DNA of 44,350 nucleotides from Microbacteriaceae bacterium (GTDB lineage Bacteria; Actinomycetota; Actinomycetes; Actinomycetales; Microbacteriaceae), in assembly GCA_025463545.1 (NCBI GenBank), contig JAODAR010000015.1, positions 1 to 44,350 on the forward strand, written 5' to 3'. Position 1 is the first letter of the stretch; every line of letters begins with the position of its first letter. Both the position numbers and the translations under genes were made by a program. Below, in pieces: positions 1-44,350 of the stretch. A model generated the notes under the pieces. That model was not told where the DNA came from and did no database searches. It was given only the letters and a program-made list of their open reading frames with translations.

Positions 1-176
1 GATACCTTCGCGATTTCCGGCTTGAGCAGGTGCACAAAGAACTCTTGGCCGCCGAGCCCGGTGCCGTGACAGTGACGGAAGTAGCAGCGCGTTGGGGATT
101 CGTGCATCTCGGCCGCTTCGCGGCCGCCTACCGGCAACGGTTCGCCGAACGCCCCTCGGACACAATCAATCGCTGA
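1..176 (+). pseudogene. AraC-type regulator, C-terminal half of HTH domain (partial)
   Basis: Reading from base 3, the frame gives YLRDFRLEQVHKELL, then TVTEVAARWGFVHLGRF and AYRQRFAERPS, and stops with TGA at 174-176. This is the second helix-turn-helix of an AraC/XylS DNA-binding domain, with the usual WGF-hLGRFaaaYrqrFgerPS ending. The first half of the domain is not to the left but at the right end of the window (44157-44350), where the frame ends in SPMRYL. Overlapping the shared terminal GATACCT rejoins the halves in frame. Because the right-hand part lacks the ligand-binding N-terminal region, the joined gene would encode only a DNA-binding domain, so it is called a gene fragment. Confidence 0.8.
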
Positions 177-637
177 GCGCCCCCTCTCAAAGTTCTGCGT
201 GGGCGCGTTAGTCGGTTGTCCCCGCTCCACCTTCTGATGCCCGTAGCCTCCCCAGCCGCGCCGTGCAACCTGATCGCGCTTCGATCCAGCCCCTCGAGGA
301 GCCTGAGCAGCGGCAGAGAAGCCCAACAGGCGGACATAGTGTCGGCGGTGATCTTTCGTTTTTCGCTAGGACCGCCGCCCACCGTGCAGCCGGGGTCGCC
401 GCTATCGGTCTGGGATTCGTCCCTACGGTAGGGCCGTGCGGTAGGCACCGCGCACCACGGAAACGGCTCAACATGTCCCGCACACCAAACTCGCTCAGCT
501 CGCGGGCGGCCGCTCCGTGACCGTGCTTCTCCGGCCAGCAGGCGACGTCGGGGCGGCCACGTGCCAACCGCTACCGACGCCACCGCCCGTTAGGAGCCCT
601 TCCCGCCCGTGATGGTCTGTTGGCTCATGGTCGCCAA
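177..637. other. Intergenic stretch without a recognised gene
   Basis: About 460 bases between the AraC fragment and the 3' end of the enolase-superfamily gene. Several frames stay open on both strands, as expected for GC-rich DNA, but none has a recognisable product, a good ribosome binding site or family motifs. It is probably decayed sequence like the other inter-cassette gaps. Confidence 0.5.
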
Positions 638-638
638 C
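619..638 (-). terminator. Possible weak hairpin at end of the enolase-superfamily gene
   Basis: GTTGGC (619-624) and GCCAAC (633-638) form a 6-bp stem with an 8-nt loop that runs into the stop codon of the minus-strand gene. There is no T tract. It could be a weak terminator or chance. Confidence 0.25.
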
Positions 639-1831
639 TAGCGGATCATGACGGGGCCGGCGGAATCCACCCGGAAATGATCGACAACGCTCATGTCAAC
701 GTCAATCCCGAGGCCTGGACGGTCCGGGACCCGGACCCGGCCGTCTTCGAGCTGGAAAGTCTCTGTGAGCAGTTCGTCACGAAGGGGGTTTCGCGTTCGA
801 TCGAATTCGACGACCGGCTCGTTCTGAAGCGGGATCGGCACATGGGCATAGGGAGCAAGTGGAAGTGCGCTGCACACCTGCAGGGCAGCTGCGAGAGCGA
901 TGCCCGATCCCCAAACGTGCGGAATGGTGCGTAAGTTGTGCGCCGAGGCGAGGGCCGCAATTTTCTGCACTTCAGAGATTCCGCCGCATACGCAGATGTC
1001 GGGCTGAATGATGTCGACACAGCCATCGCCGATAAAATCTCGGAATCCGTAGCGCGTGTACTCTGCCTCACCGCCCGCGATGGGGATGTCAAGCCGTGAC
1101 CGTACGCGCGCGTATCCAGCGCGGTCCTCCGGCGGCACTGGCTCCTCGAAGAACTGAAACCCCTGACCCTCCAGCACACGCCCCATCGCGACCGCTGTGC
1201 TCGCGTTATAGGCGTGGTTCGCGTCAGCGAGGAGGACAAAGTCATCTCCGAGGGCAGCTCGAACGGTCTCCACCCGCCGGGAGTCCTCGGCCACGGAGAG
1301 GAGACCAACCTTGATCTTTAGCATTCCGAAGCCGTCGGCGGCGTATGCGGATACCGTCTCGGCAAGGGCCGGAAGGTCGCGTGGTGCGTTGAAGTCTGTC
1401 GACCCGTAGTAGCCACCGGTCCCATACGCTTTTACGCTGCGACGGAACCTCCCGCCGATCAGTGACGAAACCGGGACACCGAGCGTTTTCCCCAGGATGT
1501 CCCAGAGCGCGATGTCGATTGCACTGATCGCTTCGACATACGTGCCCTTTTGCCCGAAGTCACGTGTGCGGGCGTACAGCGTCTCCCAGACAACGCCCGG
1601 TGAAGCGTCACCCATGGCCAGCAGCTGTGGCGCGAGCACGTTATCGATGCAGGCACTGACTGGCTCTGCGGGGCCGTACTGCCCCCCTTCACCCCATCCG
1701 CTCACACCGTCCGTGGTGGTCAATCTCACAAGGAGGCTGCTGCGCTCGGGAAACGCCGCCTGTGATGAATAGAAGGTGTCCGCCCCGAGCGGTGACTTAA
1801 GCACGAATGTCTCCACGCGCTCGATTCTCAT
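638..1831 (-). CDS. Enolase-superfamily (mandelate racemase/muconate lactonizing) sugar-acid dehydratase or cycloisomerase
   Basis: A 397-residue protein of the mandelate racemase/muconate lactonizing enzyme family. An N-terminal capping domain is followed by a TIM barrel. Visible active-site elements are the KIK pair (K172, K174), the metal ligands D203 (in LADANHAYN), E229 or E230 (FFEEPVPPED) and E255 (GGEAEYTR), and a D278/H305 dyad (QPDIC; IPHVWGSG), which fits the mandelate racemase subgroup. Related enzymes act on aldonic or aldaric acids (galactonate and glucarate dehydratases, galactarolactone cycloisomerase); the exact substrate cannot be read here. The ATG at 1831 is chosen because AGGAAGGTG lies about 9 nt upstream; an in-frame ATG at 1858 lacks such a site. 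It diverges from a GntP permease, so a sugar acid is the likely substrate. Confidence 0.85.
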   Translation of the reverse strand: MRIERVETFVLKSPLGADTFYSSQAAFPERSSLLVRLTTTDGVSGWGEGGQYGPAEPVSACIDNVLAPQLLAMGDASPGVVWETLYARTRDFGQKGTYVEAISAIDIALWDILGKTLGVPVSSLIGGRFRRSVKAYGTGGYYGSTDFNAPRDLPALAETVSAYAADGFGMLKIKVGLLSVAEDSRRVETVRAALGDDFVLLADANHAYNASTAVAMGRVLEGQGFQFFEEPVPPEDRAGYARVRSRLDIPIAGGEAEYTRYGFRDFIGDGCVDIIQPDICVCGGISEVQKIAALASAHNLRTIPHVWGSGIALAAALQVCSALPLAPYAHVPIPLQNEPVVEFDRTRNPLRDELLTETFQLEDGRVRVPDRPGLGIDVDMSVVDHFRVDSAGPVMIR

Positions 1832-1872
1832 AGATACACCTTCCTGATCTGACAGCATCGTTTGCCGAAGTC

Positions 1873-1974: not shown

Positions 1975-2086
1975 TTCGACTTATCTGAGGACCGCTTAGA
2001 CATCATGCCCCGCCGGAGTGGCTTACCCGGCACCACTGGGTTCGCCTTTTGCGGGGGAACCGCCAACTCGAAAGAGAGTGACACCG

Positions 2087-3418
2087 ATGTCAGCAGTTTG
2101 GCTGATCGTACTTTTCGTCGTCGTGTTCGTAGCGATTGCACTCCTGATAGTTCGCGTGCGCATCAATCCGGCAATTGCTCTCCTACTCGGCACGGTCGTG
2201 CTCGGGCTCGCCTCCGGCATGTCTTATCAGGACGTCGTAGAGGGAGTGAACCAAGGATTCGGCGCCATCATGGCGGAGGTTGGTCTCTTAATCAGCCTGG
2301 GCGTGATCATGGGCACTCTGATGTCCAGCTATGGCGCAGTGCAGCGCATTGTCGGTGGCATCCTGAAGATGTTCGGCACGAAGGGGGCCCCGTATGCCTT
2401 CAGCCTGACCCTGTCCACCATCACCCCGTCGATCTATTTCGATGTGCTGCTAGTTCTCGTCGCGCCGATCGCACGCACAGTCGCACGACGCACGGGTCGC
2501 CCCGTGGCTTCCCTCGCCGGCCCCGTTGCAATGGGCCTCGCGGCCGGCAACGCTCTGGTCATTCCGGGCTCCGCCATGTTGGCATATATCGGGATGCTGC
2601 AGCTTTCTGCGGGCGAGATCCTGCTGCCTGGCTTCCTCGTGGCGATACCCGCAGTCGTCCTCACTACGTTCCTCTACCTGACGGTGATCGAGCGACTGCG
2701 CTGGTGGAAGCCAGCACTTGACGAGGACCGCCTCGACGAGGCCGTCCCAGAAGAGGAACCATCAGCAGTACGCGGACCGTCGATGCTGGCAGCGGTCGCA
2801 CCTGTGCTCGTGGTGCTTGTACTCATAGTCGCGTCCATAGTCCTGCCGATGTTCGGCCTAGAGCTCCCGGCTGTCGGATTCTTTGGCAGCCCGGTCATCG
2901 CGCTTCTCGCCGGGACCCTCACCGCACTTGTGATCACCGTCGTCCTGAAGGGCCTCACGGCTCAGGAGGTCGAGATCGGCAAGGCACTGGAGACGGTCGG
3001 CACGATCCTGGTCGTGACTGCCGTAGCCGGCTCCCTCGGAGCGATCATTGCGGGGACGGGAATGCAGGAGATCCTCGCCGACCTTCTCGACGCGAACGCC
3101 GCGTTGCCGTTGTTGACAGTCTGGGGCATCGCTGCGGCACTCCGCATGGCAATCGGGGGACAGACAGTCGCGGGCATCACCGCGATCGGTATCATCGCGC
3201 CACTCATCGAACCTTTGGGCCTCTCCCCCATCCTCGTTGTACTTGCCGCAGGCGCAGGTGGTTGCTTCGGCGGCCAGTTCAGCGACAACGCGTTCTGGAT
3301 GCTTCGCAGCCTCTTCGGCTTGTCCACGCGTGGAACACTGAAGACCTACACGCTCGCCCAGTCGATGCTCTCGGTCGTAGTGCTCGCCTTTGTACTGATA
3401 GCCGACATCTTCGTCTGA
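2087..3418 (+). CDS. gntP: GntP-family gluconate/sugar-acid:H+ symporter
   Basis: A 443-residue integral membrane protein with about 12 hydrophobic segments, beginning MSAVWLIVLFVVVFVAIALL. It carries GntP-family features: an early IGLGxxxG-like stretch (residues about 75-90), conserved TPSIYFDVLLVLVAPI, and the C-terminal FSDNAFWMLRSLFGLS segment typical of gluconate permeases. It should import an aldonate such as gluconate or galactonate by proton symport in the cytoplasmic membrane. The start at 2087 is preferred because AAAGAGAGTG precedes it and translation then begins at the first membrane helix; upstream in-frame GTG at 2018 would add a polar extension. It is divergent from the enolase-superfamily gene and convergent with the FadR-type regulator. 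Confidence 0.88.
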   Translation: MSAVWLIVLFVVVFVAIALLIVRVRINPAIALLLGTVVLGLASGMSYQDVVEGVNQGFGAIMAEVGLLISLGVIMGTLMSSYGAVQRIVGGILKMFGTKGAPYAFSLTLSTITPSIYFDVLLVLVAPIARTVARRTGRPVASLAGPVAMGLAAGNALVIPGSAMLAYIGMLQLSAGEILLPGFLVAIPAVVLTTFLYLTVIERLRWWKPALDEDRLDEAVPEEEPSAVRGPSMLAAVAPVLVVLVLIVASIVLPMFGLELPAVGFFGSPVIALLAGTLTALVITVVLKGLTAQEVEIGKALETVGTILVVTAVAGSLGAIIAGTGMQEILADLLDANAALPLLTVWGIAAALRMAIGGQTVAGITAIGIIAPLIEPLGLSPILVVLAAGAGGCFGGQFSDNAFWMLRSLFGLSTRGTLKTYTLAQSMLSVVVLAFVLIADIFV

Positions 3419-29482: not shown

Positions 29483-29483
<1 letters not shown>

Positions 29484-31113: not shown

Positions 31114-31122
31114 CCATACGCC

Positions 31123-31768
31123 TCACGCGCCAGGCTCCAGGCTCCGAGCATGAGTTTTGGCGAACTTGGCTTCCACTTCCTCCGCAGTCCACCAATAGGC
31201 CTGATTCGCCTGCACCCACTCAAAGCAGGACACTATGACGCTGCCAGCATTGGCGAGAATATCCGGTACAACGAGCACGCCGTTGTCCGCGAGGATGCTG
31301 TCGGCGACCGGGGAGGTCGGCCCGTTCGCCCCCTCGACGATGACCTTTGCTTGCACCTGGGCTGCGTTGTCCTCGTGCAGAACGCCTTCGACCGCGGCCG
31401 GCACGAACAGGTCGACGGGGAGTGCAGCAGCGCATCGCTGTTGGGCGGCTCAGAGCCAGCGAAGCCAACGACGGAGCCGCTGGCCCGCGCGTGGCCGCTG
31501 AGAGCGTGCACGTCGAGGCCCTCCGAGAGTTGTAGACGGCTCCATACTGGTCGCTGACCGCGACCACGCGTACGGCGGCGGCGGCCAGGAACAGGGCGGC
31601 GTCGTGGCCGACCTCGCCGAATCCTCGCACGGCAACTGTCGCCCGTCGGCTCGGATGCCGCGGCGTGCGAGCCGACGAGCGCGATGTGGGTGACTCCGCG
31701 TGAGGTGGCGCTTGCGCGTCCGTGCGATCCGCCGAGGCTGATCGGTTTGCCGGTGACGATGCCGGGGC
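31123..31768 (-). pseudogene. gdhA: Glutamate dehydrogenase remnant
   Basis: The minus strand contains the C-terminal NAD(P)-binding half of a Glu/Leu/Phe/Val dehydrogenase in at least three frames: GIVTGKPISLGGSHGRASAT and SRGVTHIAL first; then VRGFGEVGHDAALFLAA and VVAVSDQYGAVYN; then HALSGHARASGSVVGFAG; then PAAVEGVLHEDNAAQV, VIVEGANGPTSPVADSILAD, GVLVVPDILANAGSVIVS and FEWVQANQAYWW. The catalytic N-terminal half and the last residues are absent. Several frameshifts make it non-functional. It is probably a leftover of a second copy or of a rearranged chromosomal segment. Confidence 0.88.
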
Positions 31769-31913
31769 TGTGAGTGGATTTCTTGATTCACTGGCGAGGC
31801 GGATCGTCCGACCTACCCGCCACGGTGGTGGAGCGAGCCGAATTGCGATTCGAGTCGCAGAGATGATGGCGTACGGTGAGCCGGGTATGCGTTCTCACCC
31901 ATGAATTCCCCTG

Positions 31914-31926
31914 CCCGCTGTGCGGG
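31914..31926 (-). terminator. Possible small terminator hairpin after LacI gene
   Basis: CCCGC (31914-31918), TGT loop, GCGGG (31922-31926), about 10 nt past the stop of the minus-strand LacI gene. Short stem without T tract. Confidence 0.3.
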
Positions 31927-31935
31927 GCACCAACC

Positions 31936-32958
31936 TCAGATGCGGGGGAAACTTGTGCTCTCGCGCACTATTAGCTGAGGCTCGATTAGCTCGATGAGTT
32001 TCCCTTCCTCGCCGCGCATCAGTGTGAGGATCCGGTCGACAGCTACGTGGCCGACTTCCTCGAAATCGAGGGAGACGGTGGTCAGGGAGGGCGCGAAAAA
32101 GCGTGCCTCGGGCAGGTCGTCGAAGCCAACCACGCTTACATCACCCGGCACAGATAGCCCACGTTCGTTGAACGCTTTAATGGCACCGAGGGCAAAAGGG
32201 TCGTTGGCGGCCAACACCGCGGTCACACCGGGATCGTCCGCTAGCTGGATTCCCGCCTGATAACCGGCTTGAGCGCTCCAATCATTGGTCGGGATCGCTG
32301 GTGGGACAGCTCGCCCTCTGGCCGACAACTCTGCGGCCCACCCGCGCAGCCGAGCGTCCGTGGCCATCCAGCCGGGGGGCCCGGCAATGTGCCAAACAGT
32401 TTCATGCCCGAGGTCGAGCAGGTGTCGCACTGCCATCCGGGCCCCCAGAACCTCGTCTATAGAAACGCTTGTCGCACCTGCCGGGGATCCCTGCTCGAAG
32501 GTGACAATCGGCACATCCGTCTCCATGCCGCGTAACACCTCCATCGCGGCCGTGAGCGGCGCGAGAAGGATGATGCCGTCAACCTCGTCTGCCGACAGTT
32601 CGTGGAGTGCCGCGCGCACAGTGGCATGGTCCAAGGAGCCAAGAGTGACAAGGCGCGTGCTGTACCCATGCAGCCGTGCCTGTTCGGAGATACCGAAAAG
32701 CGCGACCGATGGGCCGTGCACCGAGAGCGCATAGCTAACGACTCCGAGGTTCATCGTGCGGTTGCTTGCCAGTGCTGCCGCCGCTGGGTTGCGGCGGTAA
32801 CGCAGCTGCTCAATGGCGTGCTCGACACGGGTGCGGATATCAGGCGCAACATTGTCTGCGCGGTTGACCACGCGCGAAACCGTCTGTTGTGAGACACCCG
32901 CGAGTCTTGCGACATCAACCATGCGTGCGCCCTGAGATTTGGACGCTATTCGACTCAA
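31936..32958 (-). CDS. LacI-family regulator at the 3' end of cassette B
   Basis: A 340-residue LacI protein with helix-turn-helix RMVDVARLAGVSQQTVSRVV and a full sensor domain (VPIVTFEQGSPAGATSVSID; VLAANDPFALGAIKAF; VVGFDDLPEARFFAPSLTT). It is visibly a paralogue of the regulator at 36582-37658: same recognition helix, same RYRRNP hinge and similar sensor. Translation probably starts at TTG 32958 because AGGGGG lies 6 nt before it and the residues it adds match the paralogue's N-terminal extension in character; the ATG twelve codons later has no site. It follows the subunit 3-like gene in the same direction after a purine-rich AGCA-repeat spacer. Confidence 0.88.
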   Translation of the reverse strand: MSRIASKSQGARMVDVARLAGVSQQTVSRVVNRADNVAPDIRTRVEHAIEQLRYRRNPAAAALASNRTMNLGVVSYALSVHGPSVALFGISEQARLHGYSTRLVTLGSLDHATVRAALHELSADEVDGIILLAPLTAAMEVLRGMETDVPIVTFEQGSPAGATSVSIDEVLGARMAVRHLLDLGHETVWHIAGPPGWMATDARLRGWAAELSARGRAVPPAIPTNDWSAQAGYQAGIQLADDPGVTAVLAANDPFALGAIKAFNERGLSVPGDVSVVGFDDLPEARFFAPSLTTVSLDFEEVGHVAVDRILTLMRGEEGKLIELIEPQLIVRESTSFPRI

Positions 32959-33006
32959 GCCAGACCCCCTGCTCTTTGCTCTTGCTATTTGCTCGTGCTT
33001 TTGTGC

Positions 33007-33873
33007 TTATTCTTGTCGAACCGCCGACTCTATGCCCATTGTGGCGGCAAATTCGGCGTCGTTAGTCACGACGCCCGCTTGGGTCACCGGATGGCCGTTC
33101 CTCGGCAGGGCAACCGGACGACTCACAGTCGGCGGAAGGGAATCCCTCCCGGATGACGGCGGTCGGCGGTAGCGAAGCACTTCCGGGTGACGCTCGTACG
33201 GCCATTCAGCGTCCGGAATCATGTACTTCCGGGTGGTGTACGTTCCGTCCATCGTCGACTTCAATGTCGGTGGGCCATCGAATCCGATGACCGCCCATCC
33301 CACTCGGTTCTCGTTTCCGCCGTACACGGGGTCCCCATAAAATCCCTGTCGAGTGTTGAGCACGAGAAGTGGGAAGAATTCGAGGAAGTCCTCGTTCACC
33401 GGTTGATTGCCCGCAGGAGCACCGCCCTGTCCCTCTTCCTCCAGCGTATTAAAGGAGAACGGGAGCGGTTTCGGCTGCCCGGACAGTTGCTCTAGGACGG
33501 CGTCCTGCTGCTCGTCTGCGAGGTGGACGAAAAATGCACCAAACGTGCTTTGGGCGATTTCGTCCAGCTTCTCCACACCCGCGGAGTACAGAGCCTGTCG
33601 CAGAGCAATCCGCTCGGCCCAGGCTTGTTCCTCACGACCCTCCATCCGCAGCCATCCGATGCCGTCGGCCGCCGGGAACACGAATTGCGTACCAGCAAGC
33701 ATGCGGTCGATGAAGCGAACGGCGTTGGCCTCGCGTGCGCCAGGATGATGGTCCGTCGGGATAATGCGGGCCGTCGCGGCCTCGACAGTGTCCCACTCGT
33801 GTTGGCTAAAGTGAATGGGCCCCTCGACGTCACGCGTCGAGATGGGCACCGTAGCCCAGTTTGCCTGTCCCAT
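33007..33873 (-). CDS. Gluconate 2-dehydrogenase subunit 3-like protein (cassette B)
   Basis: A 288-residue member of the subunit 3 family, considerably longer than the cassette A homologue (183). Shared elements are TVEAATARIIPTDHHPGARE and VRFIDRMLAG at the N-terminus and TRQGFYGDPVYGGNENRVGWAVIGFDGPP further on. A C-terminal tail of about 55 residues is rich in Pro, Arg and Ser (RYRRPPSSGRDSLPPTVS) and has no counterpart in cassette A. No Tat signal is seen. It follows the GMC gene (31 nt apart) rather than preceding it as in cassette A. AGGAGAAC stands before the ATG. It should be the small partner of the upstream flavoenzyme. Confidence 0.84.
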   Translation of the reverse strand: MGQANWATVPISTRDVEGPIHFSQHEWDTVEAATARIIPTDHHPGAREANAVRFIDRMLAGTQFVFPAADGIGWLRMEGREEQAWAERIALRQALYSAGVEKLDEIAQSTFGAFFVHLADEQQDAVLEQLSGQPKPLPFSFNTLEEEGQGGAPAGNQPVNEDFLEFFPLLVLNTRQGFYGDPVYGGNENRVGWAVIGFDGPPTLKSTMDGTYTTRKYMIPDAEWPYERHPEVLRYRRPPSSGRDSLPPTVSRPVALPRNGHPVTQAGVVTNDAEFAATMGIESAVRQE

Positions 33874-33904
33874 TGGTTGTTCTCCTATCTATTCGTGTGT
33901 TCGG

Positions 33905-35551
33905 TTAGGACCAGGAGTGGCGGTCGACCTGAAGGATCCGGTCAGCGCAGCGCCACGTGTTGGCCATAATGGTGAGGGCAGGGTTGATGCCGGTGGCGGT
34001 AGGGAAGAAGCTGGCGTCGAAGACATATAGGTTCGGCACGTCGTGTGTGCGGCACCAGCGGTCCACAACGGATGTCGAAGGGTCGTTGCCCATGCGAGTT
34101 GTCCCGAGCTCGTGGGAGGTATTGCCGGTTATGCGCTCCATGTTCACAGGAACTACCTTGCTTGCGCCGGCGGCTTCGAGTATTTCGCCGTTCTTCTTCA
34201 CCTGCCATCTTTCTTGAGCGAAGTCGTTGGAGTGAGGCGTGTGTGTGATCCGCGCAACGGGCAATCCCCAGGCGTCGGTGACCGTTGGGTCAAGGTCGAC
34301 CCGATTGCTTTCGACCGGAAGATCGTGAAGCAAGATACCGATCTTCATGGAGTGGTTGAAAAGCTCGCGGTCGGCATCTTTCGCTGCCGACCCCCACGTC
34401 GGGCGACCCGGGAAGGTCCAGTTGACGGGGTGCCCGAGCATCGACGGAAATATCAGTGATCCGAGGATATGTCCTCGGCTCTGGTCAGTCTCATAGAAGT
34501 CAAACGAGCAGCCGCTCATGTAATGGCCGGACCAGCCGTAGAGCGGGTCGCTGAGGTCGCGATCGAAAAGACCAACGGAGAACGAGTATTGGTGAAAGGT
34601 CGCATTGCGTCCGACTTGACCGCTGCTATTTGCGAGGCCATCCGGAAACTGCGCCGATTTTGACATCAGGAGAAGTCGCGGGGTCTCGATTCCGCCGCCG
34701 GCTACGATCACGGCCTTGGCGTTTTGCACCCACTCATTGCCATCCTCGTCCTGGTAACGGACCCCGGTTGCACGTCCGTCCTTGCCGACGAGGATTTCGC
34801 TGACATAGCAATCGGAGCGAAGGTCGTACAAGCCGGTGTTGACCGCGTCTGGAATGAAGCTGATCAGTGTGGAGGACTTTCCGCTTCCGGGGTCGGGGTA
34901 CTGCTGCCAGAACCCGTTCTCGCTGAACGGTTGGCGGCCACGATACGGCTCCGTGACCATGCCCTGCGGCATGGGGAACGTGCTGTGCCCGAGCTTGTCC
35001 ATGCCGGTTGCGAACGTGCGCCCGATCTGGCTCAGTGGAGATGGTTTCGTTGGGTAGCCTCGGCTGCGTCGCCCTTCCCACCGGTTGGCGCCGGCGAGGC
35101 CGGACGTGCCAAACTCCCACTCGACTCGAGTGTAGTAGGGCTCCAGCTCCTCGTAGCTGATTGGCCAGTCAACGAGACTGGCGCCGGGCACCTCACCGTG
35201 TATCGAGCGAAGCTTGAAGTCGCTTGCGGTCATGCGGGGCACCATGCCACCCCAGTGTGTGGTGCCGCCGCCGACGACCTGAGGCGTGGCAGAGAAGTTC
35301 GTGACGACCGCCTCCTCCCGGTCGTTCGATCTGTACGTACGTGGCTTCACCTTCGGATCCTGCCAAATGAAGTTGCGGTTGAGATACTTGAGCTCATCGC
35401 CGGAGGCGTGCTCTGGCTTCAGCCATGGGCCGCGCTCGAGTCCGACCACGCGTAGCCCCGCCTCTGTGAGGACTTTTGCGGCAGTGGCACCCCCAGCACC
35501 TGCGCCGACAATGACCACGTCTACGGGATCAGGATTCTTCTTCGAATTCAT
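33905..35551 (-). CDS. GMC-family FAD sugar/glycoside oxidoreductase (cassette B)
   Basis: A 548-residue flavoprotein. FAD-binding VVIVGAGAGGATAAK is near the N-terminus, then VVGGGTTHWGGMVPRM. The C-terminus has SHELGTTRMGNDPSTSV and TGINPALTIMANTWRCADRI, giving the active-site His and Asn. It resembles the cassette A enzyme in plan but lacks the four-cysteine motif; the equivalent stretch reads NGFWQQYPDPGSGKSST. No export signal is visible. The ATG at 35551 is preferred over an in-frame GTG at 35563, though neither has a strong ribosome binding site. It lies between an aldo/keto reductase gene and the subunit 3-like gene. Likely oxidises a ring hydroxyl of a sugar or glycoside imported by the adjacent transporter. 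Confidence 0.87.
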   Translation of the reverse strand: MNSKKNPDPVDVVIVGAGAGGATAAKVLTEAGLRVVGLERGPWLKPEHASGDELKYLNRNFIWQDPKVKPRTYRSNDREEAVVTNFSATPQVVGGGTTHWGGMVPRMTASDFKLRSIHGEVPGASLVDWPISYEELEPYYTRVEWEFGTSGLAGANRWEGRRSRGYPTKPSPLSQIGRTFATGMDKLGHSTFPMPQGMVTEPYRGRQPFSENGFWQQYPDPGSGKSSTLISFIPDAVNTGLYDLRSDCYVSEILVGKDGRATGVRYQDEDGNEWVQNAKAVIVAGGGIETPRLLLMSKSAQFPDGLANSSGQVGRNATFHQYSFSVGLFDRDLSDPLYGWSGHYMSGCSFDFYETDQSRGHILGSLIFPSMLGHPVNWTFPGRPTWGSAAKDADRELFNHSMKIGILLHDLPVESNRVDLDPTVTDAWGLPVARITHTPHSNDFAQERWQVKKNGEILEAAGASKVVPVNMERITGNTSHELGTTRMGNDPSTSVVDRWCRTHDVPNLYVFDASFFPTATGINPALTIMANTWRCADRILQVDRHSWS

Positions 35552-35595
35552 GAACTGTTTCACTTTCTGTTCTGGTGCTCGCGTGGATGAGAAAG

Positions 35596-36546
35596 TTAGG
35601 CCGCGTCCTGCTCAATCCCGTTTCGCCCTTGGTAGGCGAGGGGCAAAAGGGCGTCCCATAGCGTGTCGGGGATGTCCCAGTTGAGGAGTTCAGCGGTTTG
35701 GGCGATTCGTCCCGGTTCCGACATTCCGACGATTGTCGAGGTGACACGGTCGTCGCGCGTGGAGAACTGCAAAGCGGCAGCGGCGAGCGGAACCGTGTAC
35801 TCGGCGCATAGCCTCTCCATGGCGGTGACGCGGTCCAGTGTCGCCTGGCCAACCGGTGCGTAGCAGTAGCGCGGCACCGCTTTCGGACCTTTCGCCAGCA
35901 TCCCGCCCCCAAACGGTGCGGCGTTGATGAACGCCACCCCGCGGGCCGTGGCCTCCTCAAGGAGGGGCTCGGCTGTCTGCTCTACAAGTGTGTAACGGTT
36001 GTGGCTGATGACGGCGTCGAAGGCTTCGGTGGTGAGGTACTTGAGTTCAAGATCGATCGGCCCACCGGCGACACCGAGGTACCGGATGACACCTTGGTCA
36101 CGCAATTGGATCAACGCTTCGAGCGGTCCGCCGGCAGCGGTGCCCGCCTTGAAGCTGATCTTCTCGGGGTCGTGGAGATAGACGAGGGGCAGGGTGTCGA
36201 GGCCGAGTCGCTCTAGGCTTTCCTCCACCGAGCGGCGCACGCGATCGCCTGAGAAGTCGCTCGTCCCCGGCAATGGGTCGACCTTCGTGGCGATCAAAAC
36301 GCCTTCGGGGACGCCTCCGTTCTCACGGATGGCCTGGCCGATGCGTCGCTCACTATCGCCTCCGCCGTACTCGTTAGAGGTGTCAATGAAGTTAAAAGGC
36401 CCGTCGAAAACAGATTTGATGGTCGCGACGGCGGTGTCCGTATCGACCTCGTAGCCGTACTGCGCGGGGAAACTTCCGAGAGCGCTTGTGCCCACGCAGA
36501 TGGGTGACACGTAGAGTGATGTGGTGCCGAGTTGTCGGTTTGACAT
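35596..36546 (-). CDS. Aldo/keto reductase
   Basis: A 316-residue aldo/keto reductase. The catalytic tetrad is visible: Asp in FNFIDTSNEYGGG, Tyr in the same segment, Lys in VLIATKVDPL and His in LPLVYLHDPEK. The N-terminus MSNRQLGTTSLYVSPICVGT is typical, and the late VTSTIVGMSEPGRIAQT segment supplies NADP contacts. The family includes aldose and pyridoxal dehydrogenases; closest in character are D-threo-aldose/L-fucose 1-dehydrogenases. It may reduce or oxidise the product of the GMC enzyme, 44 nt downstream. AAAGGAAG precedes the ATG. Confidence 0.87.
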   Translation of the reverse strand: MSNRQLGTTSLYVSPICVGTSALGSFPAQYGYEVDTDTAVATIKSVFDGPFNFIDTSNEYGGGDSERRIGQAIRENGGVPEGVLIATKVDPLPGTSDFSGDRVRRSVEESLERLGLDTLPLVYLHDPEKISFKAGTAAGGPLEALIQLRDQGVIRYLGVAGGPIDLELKYLTTEAFDAVISHNRYTLVEQTAEPLLEEATARGVAFINAAPFGGGMLAKGPKAVPRYCYAPVGQATLDRVTAMERLCAEYTVPLAAAALQFSTRDDRVTSTIVGMSEPGRIAQTAELLNWDIPDTLWDALLPLAYQGRNGIEQDAA

Positions 36547-36566
36547 GGGATTCTCTTCCTTTTGCT

Positions 36567-36587
36567 GGTTCAGGTTCAGGTTCAGAA
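36567..36587. repeat. Short hexanucleotide repeat at LacI stop codon
   Basis: The plus strand reads GGTTCAGGTTCAGGTTCAG: three tandem copies of a 6-bp unit. The LacI stop codon (36582-36584) lies within it. Copy-number change would shift the stop context and the spacing to the next gene. Confidence 0.7.
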
Positions 36588-37658
36588 CGGCTTTGCAGCC
36601 GCGTTGGGGATGGTGGGCTCGCGTCGGGCCGCGGGAGGGGGTCCAGTGCTCGCACGCACGATTAGCTCGGGGACGAATCGAGGAAGAAGTAGCGGAGGGG
36701 CGCCGTTCATGAGGTCGAGGATCCGGTCAAATGCCTGGCGCCCGATTTCTGCGAAATCCACTCGCAGTGTGGTCAATGCAGGAGTGTAGAAGGGCGCCTC
36801 CGGCACGTCATCGAAACCGATGATGCTGACGTCGTCAGGTACTGCTAGCCCGCTCTCCCTCAGCGCACAAATCACGCCGAGGGCCATCTGGTCGTTCGCG
36901 ACGAAAACGGCCGTGATTGATCGGTCGACTGCGACGGCGAGGCCCGCCTCGTATCCCGACTCAGTGGACCACTCCCCCACGATCGGCTCCGGCACCGAGC
37001 GGCCAGCACGGGCAAGTTCCTCGGCCCATCCCGTCAGTCTCGCCCGGGCCCCGAGCCACCCGTCCGGCCCGCTGATTTGGTGTACCGTGGCGTGGCCAAG
37101 GTCGAGCAGGTGCCGAGTAGCGAGCGCCGCTCCACGCACCTCATCGGCTCCCACATTGCTCGTGGCTTGCGCCGCGCCCGGTTCGAAAAGAATAAGCGGA
37201 ACTTCCACCTCCATGCCTTCGATCGAATGCGATGCTGCCTCAATGGGTGCCAGGATGATGATCCCATCCACGGCGTCTGCGATGAGGTGGTCGAGCGCAG
37301 CTCGCATGTGGGAGCGGTCGACGTCAGCGAGGGTGACGAGGTTCGTTGCATACCCTGACCGTCTCGCCCCCTCTGCTATCCCGGTAAGCGCGACGGACGG
37401 ACCGAATTGGGCGAGCCCGAAGCTGATGATTCCGATGTTGTGCGTCCGTTTTGTGGCTAGGGCACGAGCTGATGGATTTCGACGGTAGCGCAGCCGCTTG
37501 ATGGCCGACTCGACCCGTTCCCGGGCGTCCGCGCTCACGTTATCGGGACTGTTGAGCACCCGTGAGACAGTCTGTTGGGAGACCCCAGCGAGTGCCGCGA
37601 CGTCGACCATGCGTGCTCCTCGCTCTGGCTTGATGCTGGTGCTTGTTTCTCCTGGCAT
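36582..37658 (-). CDS. LacI-family regulator within cassette B
   Basis: A 358-residue LacI protein: helix-turn-helix RMVDVAALAGVSQQTVSRVL, hinge RYRRNPSARALATKRT, sensor domain with PLILFEPGAAQATSNVGADE, VFVANDQMALGVICAL and IIGFDDVPEAPFYTPALTT. The sensor differs from the downstream paralogue, but the DNA-reading helix is the same, so both may bind the same operators with different inducers. It lies 36 nt after the permease gene and 35 nt before the aldo/keto reductase gene, in the same direction, and so is probably cotranscribed with the genes it controls. The ATG at 37658 has AGCAGG upstream; a TTG three codons earlier is an alternative. Confidence 0.88.
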   Translation of the reverse strand: MPGETSTSIKPERGARMVDVAALAGVSQQTVSRVLNSPDNVSADARERVESAIKRLRYRRNPSARALATKRTHNIGIISFGLAQFGPSVALTGIAEGARRSGYATNLVTLADVDRSHMRAALDHLIADAVDGIIILAPIEAASHSIEGMEVEVPLILFEPGAAQATSNVGADEVRGAALATRHLLDLGHATVHQISGPDGWLGARARLTGWAEELARAGRSVPEPIVGEWSTESGYEAGLAVAVDRSITAVFVANDQMALGVICALRESGLAVPDDVSIIGFDDVPEAPFYTPALTTLRVDFAEIGRQAFDRILDLMNGAPPLLLPRFVPELIVRASTGPPPAARREPTIPNAAAKPF

Positions 37659-37694
37659 TTCGTTCAACCTGCTCGCCTGCTGCCGTGGGCCGAT

Positions 37695-38744
37695 TCACCG
37701 CACCTCGACCGGCCTGCGGCCGAAATGCTTCGCGAAGAATCCTGAGATGCGCTGCACTCCGCCAGCACTTGATAGGAACACCGCGATGATGATCACCGCA
37801 CCCTTGATCACGAGCTGCGGCTCGGAGGAGATTCCGACCAAATTCATGATGTTGATGATGGTTGCGAGCACGAATACACCGATCACAGCGCTGATCGGGT
37901 TCCCCTTGCCGCCGAAGAGTGATGCGCCGCCGACGACCACCGCCGCAATTGCATCGAGCTCGTAGCCGACTCCGATCAGCGAGCTGCCCTGTCGAAGTTG
38001 GGCCGCGGCAATGAGGCCTGCAAGTCCGGCCAGGAACCCTGACATGGTGTAAGTAATCAGGAGGTTCCGTGCAACTGGCAAACCTGACAGGCGGGCGGCT
38101 TCTGGGTTGCCCCCGATCGCGTAAAGGGACCGGCCAAAGGTGCTGTATTTCGCGACAAGGGCAGCGATGACCGTGACAATCAAGAAGATAAGGACCGGGT
38201 TCCGGAGCCCGAGTGTCGTGCCTCGGGAGAACACGTCAATGAAGGTGTTGTCGAAGATCTGGATGAGGCTTGTCGACTGGATGATGTAGCTGAAGCCCTT
38301 GATCGCGCTCATCATCGCAAGGGTCGCAATGAACGGCGGAATGCGGAGCCAGACCACGAGTAGGCCGTTGATCAGACCCGCAACCGCACAGCAACCAAGG
38401 GTGACCGCCACCGACATGCCGGCGCTTAGTCCCGATTGGAGCGTGAGAGCGACGATGACGGTTGACATCGCGAGAATCGAACCAACGGAGAGGTCGATAC
38501 CGCCAGTGAGGATGACAAAGAATTGTCCGACGGCGAGGATAGCCACGATAGAAGCGGCCGCGATCACGTTTTCTGCGTTGCGGACGGTGATGAAATCAGC
38601 GGAGGCGTAGTAGCCGATGATGATGATCACGATCAACACGAGGACCAGGTAGCTCTGGGGCAGGATGCGCCTTATCACATCCGGGGCCGACGTGCCTGGG
38701 GCGGACGGTGTACGAACCGGATCTTTCACAGCGTTGTTTGTCAT
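37695..38744 (-). CDS. Sugar ABC transporter permease (cassette B)
   Basis: A 349-residue RbsC-type permease with about ten hydrophobic segments. Signatures are FFVILTGGIDLSVGSILAM, PPFIATLAMMSAIKGFSY, STFGRSLYAIGGNPEAARLSG and VVVGGASLFGGKGNPISAVI. It lies 53 nt downstream of the ATPase gene and just before a LacI gene. It forms the membrane channel of the third importer in the window. Confidence 0.92.
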   Translation of the reverse strand: MTNNAVKDPVRTPSAPGTSAPDVIRRILPQSYLVLVLIVIIIIGYYASADFITVRNAENVIAAASIVAILAVGQFFVILTGGIDLSVGSILAMSTVIVALTLQSGLSAGMSVAVTLGCCAVAGLINGLLVVWLRIPPFIATLAMMSAIKGFSYIIQSTSLIQIFDNTFIDVFSRGTTLGLRNPVLIFLIVTVIAALVAKYSTFGRSLYAIGGNPEAARLSGLPVARNLLITYTMSGFLAGLAGLIAAAQLRQGSSLIGVGYELDAIAAVVVGGASLFGGKGNPISAVIGVFVLATIINIMNLVGISSEPQLVIKGAVIIIAVFLSSAGGVQRISGFFAKHFGRRPVEVR

Positions 38745-38797
38745 TGTTTTTCCGTCACATCTCGTGAGTGGTTGATGGTGGCAGGAGCCGCGCCGGA

Positions 38798-40339
38798 TCA
38801 GGCGAAGCGCTGAAGAATGGTTTGGCCGTGCGGGTCGATTTCGTCGTGGTCGTATTCCCCCACGACCCTTCCGCGGGCCATCACCAGCACGCGGTCACAC
38901 ATCATTGCTTCGGATATTTCAGAACTTGCGATGATGACGGTGCCGCCCCCGCGGGCGAAGTCCCGGATGAGCTCGTACATGTCTTCCTTCGCGCCGACGT
39001 CGACCCCCCGAGTGGGCTCGTCGCAGATCAGCAGCCGTGAGGAACGCACCAGCCAGCGCGCCAGGATCCCCTTTTGCTGAGTTCCGCCACTCAGAGTCTT
39101 CATCGGCTGATTGACACTTGACACCTTCATGCCCAATCGCATCACCATGTCCTGCGCTGCGTGCTTCTCCTTCTGACCATTTAGTACGGCTAGCCGGCTG
39201 AACATCGGCAGGGAGGCGAGAGTGATATTGCCGGCGACGCTCATATCGGGGATGAAGCCCTGGGACTTGCGGTCCTGCGGCAAGAGGCCGATCCCACGCC
39301 GGATGGCGTCGCGTGGTGAGCTGAATACCACTTCCTTCCCGTCGAGCGAGATCACCCCATCGGACTTCCTGCGGGCCCCGGCGAGAAGCCCAGCAAGTTC
39401 AGACTGGCCGCTCCCGATGAGGCCGGCGAGACCGAGGACTTCTCCCTCGAAAAGGTCCAAGCAAACGTCCGACACCCGCCCTTCTTCACCGAGTCCTTGC
39501 ACCGACATCAGCACCTTGTCTGTGCGTCCTGCGCCGAGGCGGGGGCTGCGTTCTCCGCGGAGGGCGGCGTCGGCGATCGAGCCTTCAAGGCTCTTGCCCA
39601 CCATTGCTGTGACAACATCGGCAGGTTTGGTGTCGACGGTCTTCATGTCTGCCGCCGTGATACCGTCCCGCAACACGGTGACTGCATCGCAGAGGCTGTA
39701 CAACTCATCCATCCGGTGAGAGATATAGAGGAGAGTCACTCCTTGGTCGGCGAGCCGGCGGAGGACTGTGAACAGACGCTCAACGTCAGGCAGCGGGAGT
39801 GTCGACGTCGGTTCGTCGAGGAGGAGGACGCGAGCGTCCTTGTGAAGGGCTTTAGCTAGTTCTACCGCCTGCTGCTCGGCAACGGAGTAGCTGGACACGG
39901 GAAGTCGCACGTCGAGATCGAACCCCACCCTGGCAAGGGCCTCCCGCGCTTTGTCCTGCATCTCCCGCCAGTTGACGACGCTTCCGGCACGCTTGGGCAG
40001 CTGTCCAAGGAAGATGTTCTCTGCTACGGAAAGGGACGGCACGAGGCTAAGTTCCTGATAGATGGTATGGATGCCCGCATTTTGCGCGTCCATCGGTTCC
40101 CGGAATCGCGTCAGGTCACCGTCCAAGAAGATCGAACCACCATCAGACGTTTCGGCGCCAGAAAGGATCTTGACAAGGGTTGACTTGCCAGCTCCGTTCT
40201 GTCCGGCCAGAGCATGAATGCTGCCCTTCTTGACCGAGAAGCTGACGCCCTTGAGCGCCTGCACCCCGAGGTAGCCTTTTGTAATTCCCTCGATCCGCAG
40301 CATGTCATGGGGGGAACGGTCCTGAACTTCGGCACTCAT
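38798..40339 (-). CDS. Sugar ABC transporter ATP-binding protein with two nucleotide-binding domains (cassette B)
   Basis: A 513-residue RbsA-type ATPase. Domain one: Walker A GQNGAGKSTLVK, degenerate signature YSVAEQQAVELAKAL, Walker B VLLLDEPTSTL. Domain two: P-loop GLIGSGQSEL, signature LSGGTQQKGILARWL, Walker B LLICDEPTRGVDVGAKEDM. The Thr and Gly in the second signature differ from the usual NQQK-V. The ATG at 40339 has GAGGAA 7 nt upstream; one four codons earlier has none. Confidence 0.92.
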   Translation of the reverse strand: MSAEVQDRSPHDMLRIEGITKGYLGVQALKGVSFSVKKGSIHALAGQNGAGKSTLVKILSGAETSDGGSIFLDGDLTRFREPMDAQNAGIHTIYQELSLVPSLSVAENIFLGQLPKRAGSVVNWREMQDKAREALARVGFDLDVRLPVSSYSVAEQQAVELAKALHKDARVLLLDEPTSTLPLPDVERLFTVLRRLADQGVTLLYISHRMDELYSLCDAVTVLRDGITAADMKTVDTKPADVVTAMVGKSLEGSIADAALRGERSPRLGAGRTDKVLMSVQGLGEEGRVSDVCLDLFEGEVLGLAGLIGSGQSELAGLLAGARRKSDGVISLDGKEVVFSSPRDAIRRGIGLLPQDRKSQGFIPDMSVAGNITLASLPMFSRLAVLNGQKEKHAAQDMVMRLGMKVSSVNQPMKTLSGGTQQKGILARWLVRSSRLLICDEPTRGVDVGAKEDMYELIRDFARGGGTVIIASSEISEAMMCDRVLVMARGRVVGEYDHDEIDPHGQTILQRFA

Positions 40340-40376
40340 GCGATTCCTCATTCACTTCGTCGTGAGTCGGGTCGGT

Positions 40377-40403
40377 GCGCCCGGCCGGATGAACCGGGCG
40401 CAT
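40377..40403 (-). repeat. GC hairpin between binding-protein and ATPase genes of cassette B
   Basis: TGCGCCCGG (40377-40385) pairs perfectly with CCGGGCGCA (40395-40403) around a 9-nt loop. It lies 25 nt past the binding-protein stop codon and is the third hairpin of this kind in the window. Confidence 0.7.
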
Positions 40404-40427
40404 CGACGATCGAGTCGGGTGTCCTGC

Positions 40428-41525
40428 CTACTTGCTCGCGCGCACGTACGTGTCGCCGGGCTTGTAGTACTGTTTGGCGGTCTCCGGCGTCACAACAGTG
40501 GTGTCGATGAAAATCTCCTTTTTCGGGCAAGCCGAGGTGTCGTCATTGAATGCCGAAAGCGCCATCTTTACCGCCGTTGCCCCCTGGTCCCACGGCTGGT
40601 TCGACGCCGTCGCCTGAAGCGGACCTGTGGGGTTGTCGAGCATTTCTTTCACCGAGTTCATGCCGCCGTCGTAACCGGCGACGATTACCCCGTCGCCCCA
40701 GATACCGGCCTGCTGGAGACCCTGCTCGATGCCGCCCTCCATCACATCGCTCATGCTGTATACGATTTTCAGGTCAGGGTTCGCCGTTGCGACATCCCGG
40801 ATCGGAGCCAGCGCCTTGTCCGGCTTCCACTCGCCGTACTTGTTTTCGAGCTTTGTGGTCGTGATCCCGGGGTAACCCTTCATAACTTTCTCGTATCCCT
40901 TGAGGAATCCGTTGTAGCGCAAGTCACTAATCACGTCGCCCGGGAAACCGCCAATGCCGACGACTTTGATCTCGCCGGTGTCACCGAACTTCTCAATCGC
41001 CTTCTTGGCGGCCACTTCGCCTGCGAGCGAGCCGGTGTAGCCCTGATCTTCCGCGACATAACAGAACATGTCACCGACGAGTGAAGGGTCGAGGTTGGAG
41101 TTGACGGTGACCAGCGGGATGCCGGCGTCCTTGAGCGCGGCCACCGAAGCACCGACACCTATTGGGTCGTTGGCGTTCATGACAACCACGTCGACGCCCT
41201 TGGTGATCAGCGTCTGGATGTCAGCGTTCTGGCGAACGGTGTCACCGTTGGCGTCGAGCAACTCGATCTTTGCGCCCATCTTGGTGGCTTCGGACTGGCC
41301 GCCCTCGACGAGAGTTTTCCACCAGTCGCTGCCGCTGATGCCGCGCTGGCTCCAGCCGATTAGGAGTCCCTTTCCGGAGGCCTTGTCCGCGCTACTTGCA
41401 GGCTGGCCGTCAGTGCCGCCACGGGCACAACCGGTGAGAACCAGCGCCGTGGCGGCGGCCACTGCAATGAATGCGGATACGCGACGGGTCCGTGGGGCTC
41501 GTGCGTTGCTGTTGAGACTGATCAT
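40428..41525 (-). CDS. Sugar ABC transporter substrate-binding lipoprotein (cassette B)
   Basis: A 365-residue binding protein of periplasmic-binding family 4. The twin-Arg-rich start RAPRTRRVSAFIAVAAATAL leads to lipobox LTGC, so it is a lipoprotein. Mature features: LIGWSQRGISGSDWWKTLVE, QNADIQTLITKGVDVVVMNA, IPLVTVNSNLD, VVGIGGFPGDVISDLRYNGF and VIVAGYDGGMNSVKEM. It is divergent from the other two binding proteins in the ligand-facing segments, so a different substrate is likely. AAGGGAGTGGAACC stands before the ATG. A stable hairpin follows the stop. Confidence 0.91.
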   Translation of the reverse strand: MISLNSNARAPRTRRVSAFIAVAAATALVLTGCARGGTDGQPASSADKASGKGLLIGWSQRGISGSDWWKTLVEGGQSEATKMGAKIELLDANGDTVRQNADIQTLITKGVDVVVMNANDPIGVGASVAALKDAGIPLVTVNSNLDPSLVGDMFCYVAEDQGYTGSLAGEVAAKKAIEKFGDTGEIKVVGIGGFPGDVISDLRYNGFLKGYEKVMKGYPGITTTKLENKYGEWKPDKALAPIRDVATANPDLKIVYSMSDVMEGGIEQGLQQAGIWGDGVIVAGYDGGMNSVKEMLDNPTGPLQATASNQPWDQGATAVKMALSAFNDDTSACPKKEIFIDTTVVTPETAKQYYKPGDTYVRASK

Positions 41526-41718
41526 GGTTCCACTCCCTTGTGTTTTCGATCGGAATTCTCTGGTTCAGGTACTTGCGTTTAGTTAGATGCGAGGAAAGCT
41601 CTCGCCGCCCTCGCGACAGCGGCCCGGTGGCGGCCCAGCACCCTGAAGTGTTGGGACGCCACGAGGCGCTGTCGGCTATCCGACGCTCGAAGCTAGGTGC
41701 CTTCGCCGCGCTGAGCGT
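41526..41718. other. Spacer between nitrilase-family and binding-protein genes
   Basis: 193 bases that should hold the promoter of the cassette B importer. A CCCAGCAC/GTGTTGGG inverted repeat (about 41636-41657) is imperfect on the transcribed strand. TTTTCGATCGGAATT near 41544-41558 has a CGATCG core and may be a regulator site. No confident -35/-10 pair. Confidence 0.35.
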
Positions 41719-42804
41719 CTACCCGATGGGGGTAAATACTCCCCGCTCTTCGAGCAGCTTGATGTTGCGCGCGCGCGTTGCGCGCTCCCGAGCGAGCCAG
41801 CCTTCTTTAGGCGGCTCGTGGAGGTACTGGTTCTTTGGGTAGATCGGTTCGGCATAGATGGCCGCGTACTGCTCTGTGCGCAGGTCCTTGAACCCATTGA
41901 AAACGCCATTGGACTGACGATCGCGTCGAAGGGCATCAATGTCGATCGTTGTGCTTACGAAGGAATCGCCTGGAGCGAGGCCGGTTTGCTCGACGATGAT
42001 CTTGCCGCGCTGGTCAACAATCATTGACCGCCCGCCGAATAGGTCGTTGAGGACTCCGTCCGGACCAAGCTCGGGGCCGAGGTTCGGTGCGACCACGATC
42101 GCATTGTTGAAGAGGGCATGAGCGCGGTTTTGCACTTCCCACATTCCATTCATGGTCTGCGGTTCGATCAGGGTGGCGCGAATGATGATTTCGGCGCCAT
42201 TCATGGCCAGCCCCCGAGCGATCTCGGGATAGGCGCCCTCATGGCAGATGACATAACCGATGTTCCCGATGTCAGGCGTTTTTGCGACGGGATAGATGGC
42301 ATCCAACACATTGCCGTTGCCCTTCTTCTGAATCCACTCGTCCCACAGGTCGTGGGGATTCGTCGTTCCGAGGGTGCCGCCCTCGAAACCGTCGCTCGTG
42401 GCCTTCGCTCTCCGGTAGACGACCTCCCCCTGGGGGTTGATCATGAAGGCGACGTTGAAGTAGCGGTCCGGGAAGTCGTCGTCGGCGACGAGATACAACT
42501 CACCAGCGATATACGTGTTCAGCTCGCGTGCAGCCTTGCCGAGCTCATCAGTTTCCGGACCGGGGATGGTTCGGGCGAACTTCTTTTCCGCCTCCCGATT
42601 CCCGGCAGTGAAAGCCATGTGCATCCCCTGAATCGCCATCTCCGGAATAACGACGAGCTTTACGGGGTATCCCTCGGTCGAGGCCACGCCTACCGCTGTC
42701 TTCATGAAGCCGATGATGCGCTTCGTGTTCTTGAGAGCGTCTTCCGGCTCTACGATCGGGATTTGCAGCGGCGAGAGCGCTACGACTGTGTACGGCTCAG
42801 TCAC
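41719..42804 (-). CDS. Nitrilase-superfamily carbon-nitrogen hydrolase
   Basis: A 361-residue enzyme of the nitrilase superfamily. The Glu-Lys-Cys triad is visible: E55 (VVIPEMAIQG), K134 (VVYRRAKAT) and C187 (GYVICHEGAYPEIA). Overall length and the NRAHALFNNAIVVAPNLG segment recall aliphatic amidases and formamidases more than true nitrilases. It should hydrolyse a nitrile, amide or carbamoyl bond in the cytoplasm. The GTG at 42804 is chosen because AAGGAG lies 6 nt before it; a TTG two codons earlier would overlap that spacing. It heads the row of minus-strand cassette B genes, 193 bp before the binding-protein gene, suggesting that the imported compound contains a C-N group. Confidence 0.86.
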   Translation of the reverse strand: MTEPYTVVALSPLQIPIVEPEDALKNTKRIIGFMKTAVGVASTEGYPVKLVVIPEMAIQGMHMAFTAGNREAEKKFARTIPGPETDELGKAARELNTYIAGELYLVADDDFPDRYFNVAFMINPQGEVVYRRAKATSDGFEGGTLGTTNPHDLWDEWIQKKGNGNVLDAIYPVAKTPDIGNIGYVICHEGAYPEIARGLAMNGAEIIIRATLIEPQTMNGMWEVQNRAHALFNNAIVVAPNLGPELGPDGVLNDLFGGRSMIVDQRGKIIVEQTGLAPGDSFVSTTIDIDALRRDRQSNGVFNGFKDLRTEQYAAIYAEPIYPKNQYLHEPPKEGWLARERATRARNIKLLEERGVFTPIG

Positions 42805-43084
42805 GTTCAACTCCTTTGTTGTTGAGGTTCGTGTGGCGATGTTAGCGCACTATCGCGACGCGACGCTAGTGTTTTTCGCGACGCGTTTTTCAGTGTGAGG
42901 AGTGGAACGCGCTGCGTCTATCCGCGCCCTGTGCGCATCGAGCAAGCCGGATTGAAGAAACTCCTGGCTGCACCAACAATTTTGGATCAAAGCCCATCAG
43001 CGGGTGAAACTCGGTACCACGGCATTGCCAACCTTGGGGGAGACACAGAGGGATGAGGAAGCCATACCAAAGATATTTCAGCGC
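42805..43084. promoter_or_regulatory. Upstream region of cassette B with LacI-like half site and inverted repeat
   Basis: Within 280 bases before the nitrilase-family gene, ATGTTAGCGC (42839-42848) matches the left half of LacI operators of the TGTTAGCGCTAACA type, though the right half is degenerate. CACTATCG (42848-42855) and CGCTAGTG (42864-42871) form an inverted repeat with one mismatch. TTTTCGCG-A-CGCGTTTT lies at about 42873-42889. These are candidate sites for one of the two paralogous LacI proteins. No gene is seen to 43084. Confidence 0.4.
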
Positions 43085-43990
43085 GTCCCTGTTAGCGCAC
43101 TCTCACGTTCTTGCGGAGGTGGCTCAGCCGGTAAACCGCTCCGCAGAGCCAAGCTCTCCGGAAGGAGGCGAACCCTCGAACTGGCGCACGGACTTCTTGG
43201 CGGTCACCGACCGGGACGGCCGGTACGGGGCGGTCAACCAGGTTCGTGCGTGCGTGGCCGCCGGCATCCGCCCGGGCCTCGGCGCCGAGCTGGCTGTCCA
43301 CGACGATGAGCATCGACCGCTCGGCCGCGTGGTCGTCCTCGCCCACGGGAACACGCAGGGTCGCGAGTACGGGGCGCTCTGCCGGGCCGTGAGCGCCGCG
43401 CACCAGCTGGGTAAGAAGCCCAGCATCTCCCGTGCCCGACTGGCCACCCTTGCCGGCCTCCGATCCCTGACGGTCCTCATCGGCCCGGCATCCGACGTGG
43501 GGCAGGCCATCGAACGGCGGGACAGCTCCGACGCCCACGCGGCGCTCGAGCACGAGATGAAGACGGTGGAGCGCCCGGGGTTCGCCCCCTACTTCCTGAC
43601 CGTCGCCCGGGTCGCGAACCTGATACGGGAGATGGGTGTCCGGGTCCACGCGCGCGGCTCCGGCGTCGGCTCGGTCCTGAACTACGCACTCCGCACCTGT
43701 CCGTGGAACCGATAAGCAACAGCCTCATCTGGGAACGGTCCCTCTCCCCGAACGCCAGACCCTCTCCGACATTGACCTGGACGTGAAATCGGCACGCCGC
43801 CACAACATCTACCGAAAAGTGTTCGGGAAGTTTCGGCGCGGACCGGGTCAGTCTCATATCGATGATCAAGGCATACCGCTCCCCGCGGAGCTGTGCGCGA
43901 CGCGCGCCTCGCACTCGGAATGAAGGACGAGGAGGTGGCGTCCATCGCGAATCAGATGTGGGGTTTCAACGCACGACGCTCCCAGCAACT
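43085..43990 (+). pseudogene. dnaE2: Decayed error-prone DNA polymerase III alpha subunit gene
   Basis: Ordered pieces of DnaE2 in different frames. The PHP domain start (LLAHSHVLAEV, then TDFLAVTDRDGRYGAVNQV, GIRPGLGAELAV, VVVLAHGNTQGREYGALCRA and SLTVLIGPASDVGQA) joins directly, after a loss of roughly 200 codons, to palm-domain sequence (LEHEMKTVERPGFAPYFLTV, VANLIREMGVRVHARGSGVG, SVLNYAL). A frame change follows, then PLPERQTLSDIDLDVKSARR and HNIYRKVFGKF, another shift, and AVRDARLALGMKDEEVASIA with NQMWGFNAR. The remaining two thirds of the protein are absent. Internal deletion plus several frameshifts and stops show that it is not functional. Confidence 0.88.
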
Positions 43991-44156
43991 GGATGAGTGT
44001 GCGCAGCGGAAATGTGTGCCGTTTAGGAAACGTGTGTCATTAAAACGGCAGCTGCAGTCTTCGGGAAGCGCTTGGTTCGAGTACCCAGAGGCGTGGTTTA
44101 GGCCGGGGCGAACCGAACGTCTGCGAGCCAGCGCGGTCTAGCGAGGTGATACCTGA
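43991..44156. other. Short gap between dnaE2 remnant and AraC fragment
   Basis: About 165 bases with no recognised coding content; the polymerase reading frame runs on to about 44120 but no longer resembles DnaE2. A stop TGA at 44154-44156 closes the AraC frame on its left. Confidence 0.4.
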
Positions 44157-44350
44157 TCTTGGAACGAGCGTCCTCGGGCAAGTCCGCCCCTCGCGGGGGC
44201 ACGTTGGGTGTCTGAGGCGGTGAATCTGATGCGTGCGCGTCCGGCCCACGCGTGGACCGCGGCTGAGCTCGCCGCCGCTTCATCGACCAGCGTGCGCAGC
44301 CTGCAGGAGAACTTCCGCCGTTCACTTGGCACGTCCCCGATGAGATACCT
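44157..44350 (+). pseudogene. AraC-type regulator, first half of HTH domain (runs off the window end)
   Basis: The frame after the TGA at 44154-44156 reads ARWVSEAVNLMRARPAHAWT, AAELAAASSTSVRSLQENF and RRSLGTSPMRYL, the first helix-turn-helix and linker of an AraC/XylS DNA-binding domain. Possible internal starts are GTG 44208, GTG 44220 and ATG 44229. The sensor domain that normally precedes this region (about 200 residues) is missing. The sequence ends at exactly the codon with which the window's first bases begin, so both ends belong to one domain if the molecule is circular or tandem. Confidence 0.78.

Follow-up and report, generated by a model that had tools for sequence, protein, structure and literature searches.

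A 44-kb contig from a Microbacteriaceae-like genome closes on itself within a remnant of an AraC-type regulator gene

The two ends of the DNA described here rejoin inside a single DNA-binding domain, which raises the question of whether the segment is a physical circle, a tandem copy or a stretch of a larger replicon closed in assembly. The window (the whole stretch analysed, 44,350 bp) comes from a Microbacteriaceae-like genome and probably represents one whole assembled contig. As the preliminary description had noticed, its first and last seven bases are identical (GATACCT). This is the sole exact overlap of the ends among lengths of 1–59 bases, and the motif occurs only once more in the whole window on either strand, at 44148. 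With one copy removed, an open frame runs from the GTG at 44208 across the join as far as the stop codon at 174–176; plain abutment of the ends produces a frameshift. Both observations agree with what had been claimed. The joined product of 103 amino acids matches the Pfam family HTH_18 (73.7 bits, E = 1.5e-20) and also HTH_AraC, and has the DNA-binding domain that characterizes AraC-type regulators. The features discussed below are collected in Table 1.

Table 1. Position of the AraC remnant, its surroundings and the paralogue pair of a comparison genome.
Feature	Position	Strand	Remarks
AraC remnant, left-edge piece	1–186	+	85–91% identical to five relatives (blastn); bases 1–7 repeat 44344–44350; stop at 174–176; P0013
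No recognised gene	177–637		No Pfam match in ORFs 263–520, 128–583 and 208–567; no strong codon-position GC bias
Enolase-superfamily (MR/MLE) enzyme	638–1858	-	First intact gene at left; adjoins GntP permease (2018–3418), a neighbour kept in several relatives
Catabolic cluster LacI-Gdh3-GMC-AKR-LacI-permease-ATPase-binding protein-nitrilase	31936–42810	-	Last intact genes at right; order conserved in relatives
Decayed DnaE-type polymerase gene	43053–43864	+	220-aa ORF 43053–43715 with PHP and DNA_pol3_alpha (Pfam); dnaE similarity past its stop to 43864
AraC remnant, right-edge piece	44171–44350	+	86–90% identical to five relatives (blastn); begins just before the DNA-binding domain; GTG at 44208; ORF 44208–44348 open at its end
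GATACCT, 7-bp end overlap	44344–44350	+	Identical to bases 1–7
AraC paralogues of G713 (L130, L131)	C2: 40356–40658 and 60526–60825	Same orientation	Second with an interrupted frame

An even sample of 398 genomes represents the family that contains Microbacterium sp. Marseille-Q6648 (locus L002) and also Agrococcus (L001), which we take to be the Microbacteriaceae. The joined AraC sequence finds a match at E ≤ 1e-30 in 26 of these genomes, and the five best (G647, G618, G572, G589 and G481; 89–95% protein identity) were fetched for comparison of the DNA. By blastn the joined DNA aligns without a gap over the join in all five (320–359 bp, 86–90% identity). Among overlaps of 0, 3, 6, 7, 8, 9 and 12 bases, only the removal of 7 gave a gapless alignment, and it had the top score in every relative. 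At the level of sequence, the window ends are consecutive pieces of one AraC-family remnant of about 360 bp and the contig closes on itself. A mere coincidence would ask only that seven bases agree, an event with a probability of 1 in 16,384 at one given length, but it is contradicted by the frame, the domain, the gapless homology in five of five relatives and the response to a 7-base overlap alone, and is vanishingly improbable. An even sample of 396 genomes from the order contained no close AraC relative (30 at E ≤ 1e-20, with listed identities of at most 52%).

What the join restores is part of a gene. The AraC-type regulators of the five relatives carry HTH_18 and resemble the window copy closely over the DNA-binding domain (89–95% alike, gapless across the join); they differ from it in having an N-terminal sensor domain upstream, which the window copy lacks, its homology to them starting only at 44171 and stopping at about 186 (blastn). 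Four of them have open frames of 353–442 aa (G647, G618, G572 and G589), and in G481 the AraC protein is 231 aa, its sensor domain split by a frameshift. As the sensor domain is missing, the AraC sequence at the join (44171–44350 plus 8–186) is a remnant and not a gene. The ‘complete AraC domain’ of the preliminary description is therefore accurate for the DNA-binding domain and does not extend to the gene.

An unlikely alternative is that the segment is linear and carries two different AraC remnants at its edges, the contig stopping at the same codon in both. AraC paralogues of the broad family are common, and one sampled genome (G713) has a same-orientation pair around the conserved catabolic cluster. 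Furthermore, conservation is lower in the left-edge piece than in the right-edge one in all four protein comparisons (conserved residues, right and left: P0001, 39/41 and 50/55; P0002, 41/44 and 43/55; P0003, 28/31 and 48/55; P0004, 32/41 and 38/55). At the DNA level, the window differs from the relatives by 8–12% in the right-edge part and by 12–18% in the left-edge part, and by codon count the left is somewhat more diverged in five of five relatives. The relatives differ from one another by 11–18% and 11–21% in the same parts, so the divergence of both halves is close to or inside the range seen between them. Since they mostly show the same trend (7 of 10 pairs), the excess in the left half fits normal variation along the gene; the pattern is also compatible with two recent AraC copies, which it does not exclude. 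In both halves the differences lie mainly at third codon positions, a bias that fits a gene that may have been under selection until recently, with part of the signal coming from the relatives' own branches. Two separate remnants would require two independent breaks at the same base, and they sit poorly with a protein, P0015, that has both peptides in one chain.

This protein was found in a set of 5.8 billion proteins, searched with candidates of 0.55–1.75 times the query length (about 57–180 aa), a range that excludes full-length relatives. Three JGI proteins (P0001–P0003) are 85–93% identical to the remnant and lie on contigs of 932–1,607 bp. P0015 (80 aa) is encoded on a separate contig of 30,118 bp; its 55 residues spanning the join are identical up to KELL and diverge thereafter. 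Because P0015 spans the join unbroken, the break of the window falls within a piece that exists elsewhere at the protein level. The earlier claim that both ends belong together is well supported, by the gapless homology in all five relatives as well as by P0015, which carries both peptides. The source entry of P0015 is ‘-’, as for the window's own protein, and its tail is absent from the window, which suggests that it may come from the same assembly. A search for this tail in the window and in the fetched loci gave no exact peptide, only weak matches at chance level, and no homologue of window 43053–43715 was seen on the 30,118-bp contig among 19 hits. The window itself contains no internal direct repeat of at least 40 bp. 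Of the five closest relatives, four show no other AraC gene at E ≤ 1e-30 and one has a 61% paralogue, although only 12 candidates were scored in three of the five and a further copy could be missed there.

The paralogues of G713 lie about 20 kb apart and are 74% alike over 825 bp. They are 65–67% identical to the window piece, compared with 89–95% for the five closest matches, and are thus too distant to be the same copies; they serve as an analogy. The options of a contig broken at a repeat and of two AraC copies, both raised in the preliminary description, gain some support from P0015 and from the G713 pair, the latter as an analogy only.

A physical circle or a tandem copy is a possibility to be taken seriously. 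The 44,343-bp segment would then really be closed by a single AraC remnant, whether as a cryptic plasmid, as a circle that was excised or as a duplication placed head to tail. The join is seamless at one exact overlap, and the DNA on both sides of the remnant is not homologous to the neighbourhood of AraC in the relatives, as would be the case for a single debris region between two operons. Closure of the kind expected of a circular plasmid is seen at the level of the contig only. The gene content speaks against this reading. A Pfam scan covered 59 of the 188 ORFs of at least 80 aa in the window (those that look like genes and a selection from the intervals between them), and in these 59 no replication-initiator, partition, integrase, transposase or conjugation family was found, as had been stated earlier for all of these but transposases; the decayed DnaE piece is the only replication-family match among them. 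Of the circular element of about 44,343 bp, one of four options originally listed, the closing ends are retained, and neither a plasmid backbone nor a replication-initiator gene was found among the ORFs scanned.

Searches of plasmid records point the same way. With megablast against 72,556 of them, positions 1–25000 gave no match, and positions 25000–44350 matched 118 records, none covering 80%; the 20 listed correspond, where annotated, to ABC-transporter genes. Plasmid matches at the window ends, where annotated, are dnaE (10 of the 30 listed) and one 59-bp stretch of AraC, which also counts against a circle or tandem copy. Among the matches listed, these searches of the window and its ends show no similarity to a plasmid backbone and lend no support to a known plasmid. 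A phage is equally without support: phage records gave no match to 43000–44350, and viral contigs none to the first 40 bases. The window contains no tRNA and no Rfam match at gathering score. With no integrase family in the 59 ORFs and no tRNA gene, which often serves as the attachment site, the marks of an integrative element that excises by site-specific recombination were not found. Seven base pairs is a typical crossover length for tyrosine recombinases. A recombinase core was rejected here, the shared bases being contig ends inside a coding frame, with no integrase (59 ORFs) and no tRNA.

Next to the remnant at the right lies the decayed dnaE. Its 43578–43864 part is 70.9% identical by blastn to the plasmid-borne dnaE of Arthrobacter sp. 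YA7-1. A protein on a 5,281-bp JGI contig (P0039) is 99% identical to the whole ORF 43053–43715, an argument for genuine DNA, and against an assembly artefact, as the origin of the dnaE debris.

The rest of the window is devoted to sugar catabolism, with enolase-like, GntP and GntR proteins, oxidoreductases, three ABC sugar transporters, AraA, an aldolase, FGGY kinases, four LacI regulators and a nitrilase-like enzyme. The nitrilase is present at E ≤ 1e-60 in 8 of the 398 genomes and is 87–94% identical in six. The order of the nine-gene cluster is kept in five of these six fetched relatives (with the last gene truncated at the edge of the stretch in one) and in the sixth it is the same as far as the contig reaches; in the other two genomes the nitrilase is 69% identical and about 4 kb were seen. 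In G738 a single 3.9-Mb contig carries the nitrilase cluster and, at a distance of about 3.2 Mb, an araA-like match, so the window appears as a mosaic of modules. This scattering of the catabolic genes in the genomes of relatives is a further point against a circle or tandem copy. The enolase gene was found in 1 of 398 genomes at E ≤ 1e-120 and in none of the eight nitrilase-bearing genomes at 1e-80, and no relative was found with the enolase and nitrilase ends adjacent.

Several smaller remnants occur between the modules. Positions 30583–31767 hold remnants of a RibD_C-domain protein and of a frameshifted glutamate dehydrogenase, and 22474–22703 a LacI regulator remnant with 74% DNA identity to Clavibacter plasmid genes. 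In the 1.5 kb at 15159–16689 the ORFs tried have no Pfam match, and there is no plasmid match; 15351–15537 resembles at least four places in contig C8 of G589 and at least one each in G481 and G749.

The same join would result from a physical circle, from a tandem copy or from an assembly path through a repeated AraC piece, and the contig alone cannot separate them. Our tentative preference is for closure in assembly, at an AraC repeat, of a segment that belongs to something larger, and not for a physical circle or tandem copy. The AraC piece would be present more than once in the genome or sample; leaving one copy, the assembler would have run through 44 kb of a larger replicon and re-entered the repeat at another copy. 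Alternatively, it may have opened the segment at the AraC piece and left the 7-base overlap. The segment would then not be an autonomous replicon, and the remnant would be debris adjoining a decayed polymerase gene, with no special work to do. Repeat assembly is favoured because no replication-initiator gene was found in the 59 ORFs and a second AraC piece lies on another contig, and we rate it slightly above a physical circle or tandem copy. Against it, the P0015 copy is known as a protein only, and the lack of an internal repeat and the mostly single AraC gene of the relatives also count. A repeat of about 360 bp would hardly stop a long-read assembler. The odd 7-base overlap in itself favours none of the three.

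Closed metagenome contigs with direct terminal repeats, as treated in one report (PMC8116208), are like the window in having the same sequence at both ends and closing on themselves; they require at least 20 bases, whereas the window has 7 and no plasmid or mobility gene was found in it. According to the same source, many terminal repeats in short-read assemblies fall at likely k-mer lengths, e.g. 55, 77 and 99 bases (PMC8116208); an overlap of 7 is not among these, which counts against repeat assembly. Looking in the literature for contigs closed by a repeat, and for excision in the Microbacteriaceae, brought no result in the passages covered (PMC8116208, PMC10914615), and absence from print is not claimed. 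Overall, a circle is possible and a plasmid is not favoured; what lies at the contig end is ordinary genome debris.

A more far-reaching version joins the repeat to a physical event. Homologous recombination between flanking direct repeats can excise or duplicate the DNA they enclose, and either event would give exactly the join of the window. A 44-kb catabolic segment between direct AraC-remnant repeats might be excised or amplified in this way, the window being the circle (or one unit of a tandem array) and the empty site lying on the contig of 30,118 bp that encodes P0015. Such a segment should show two direct copies in one genome and an empty site; here, in distinction from the known systems, the candidate second copy is known as the protein P0015 on another contig, and we regard this version as quite improbable. 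If it were true, a metabolic island would be gained and lost without a mobility gene of its own.

The case is mainly a caution: perfect closure of contig ends through a degenerate gene piece does not make the contig a plasmid. A circle or tandem copy that proved real would represent a repeat-mediated catabolic island in the Microbacteriaceae, which would be of moderate interest.
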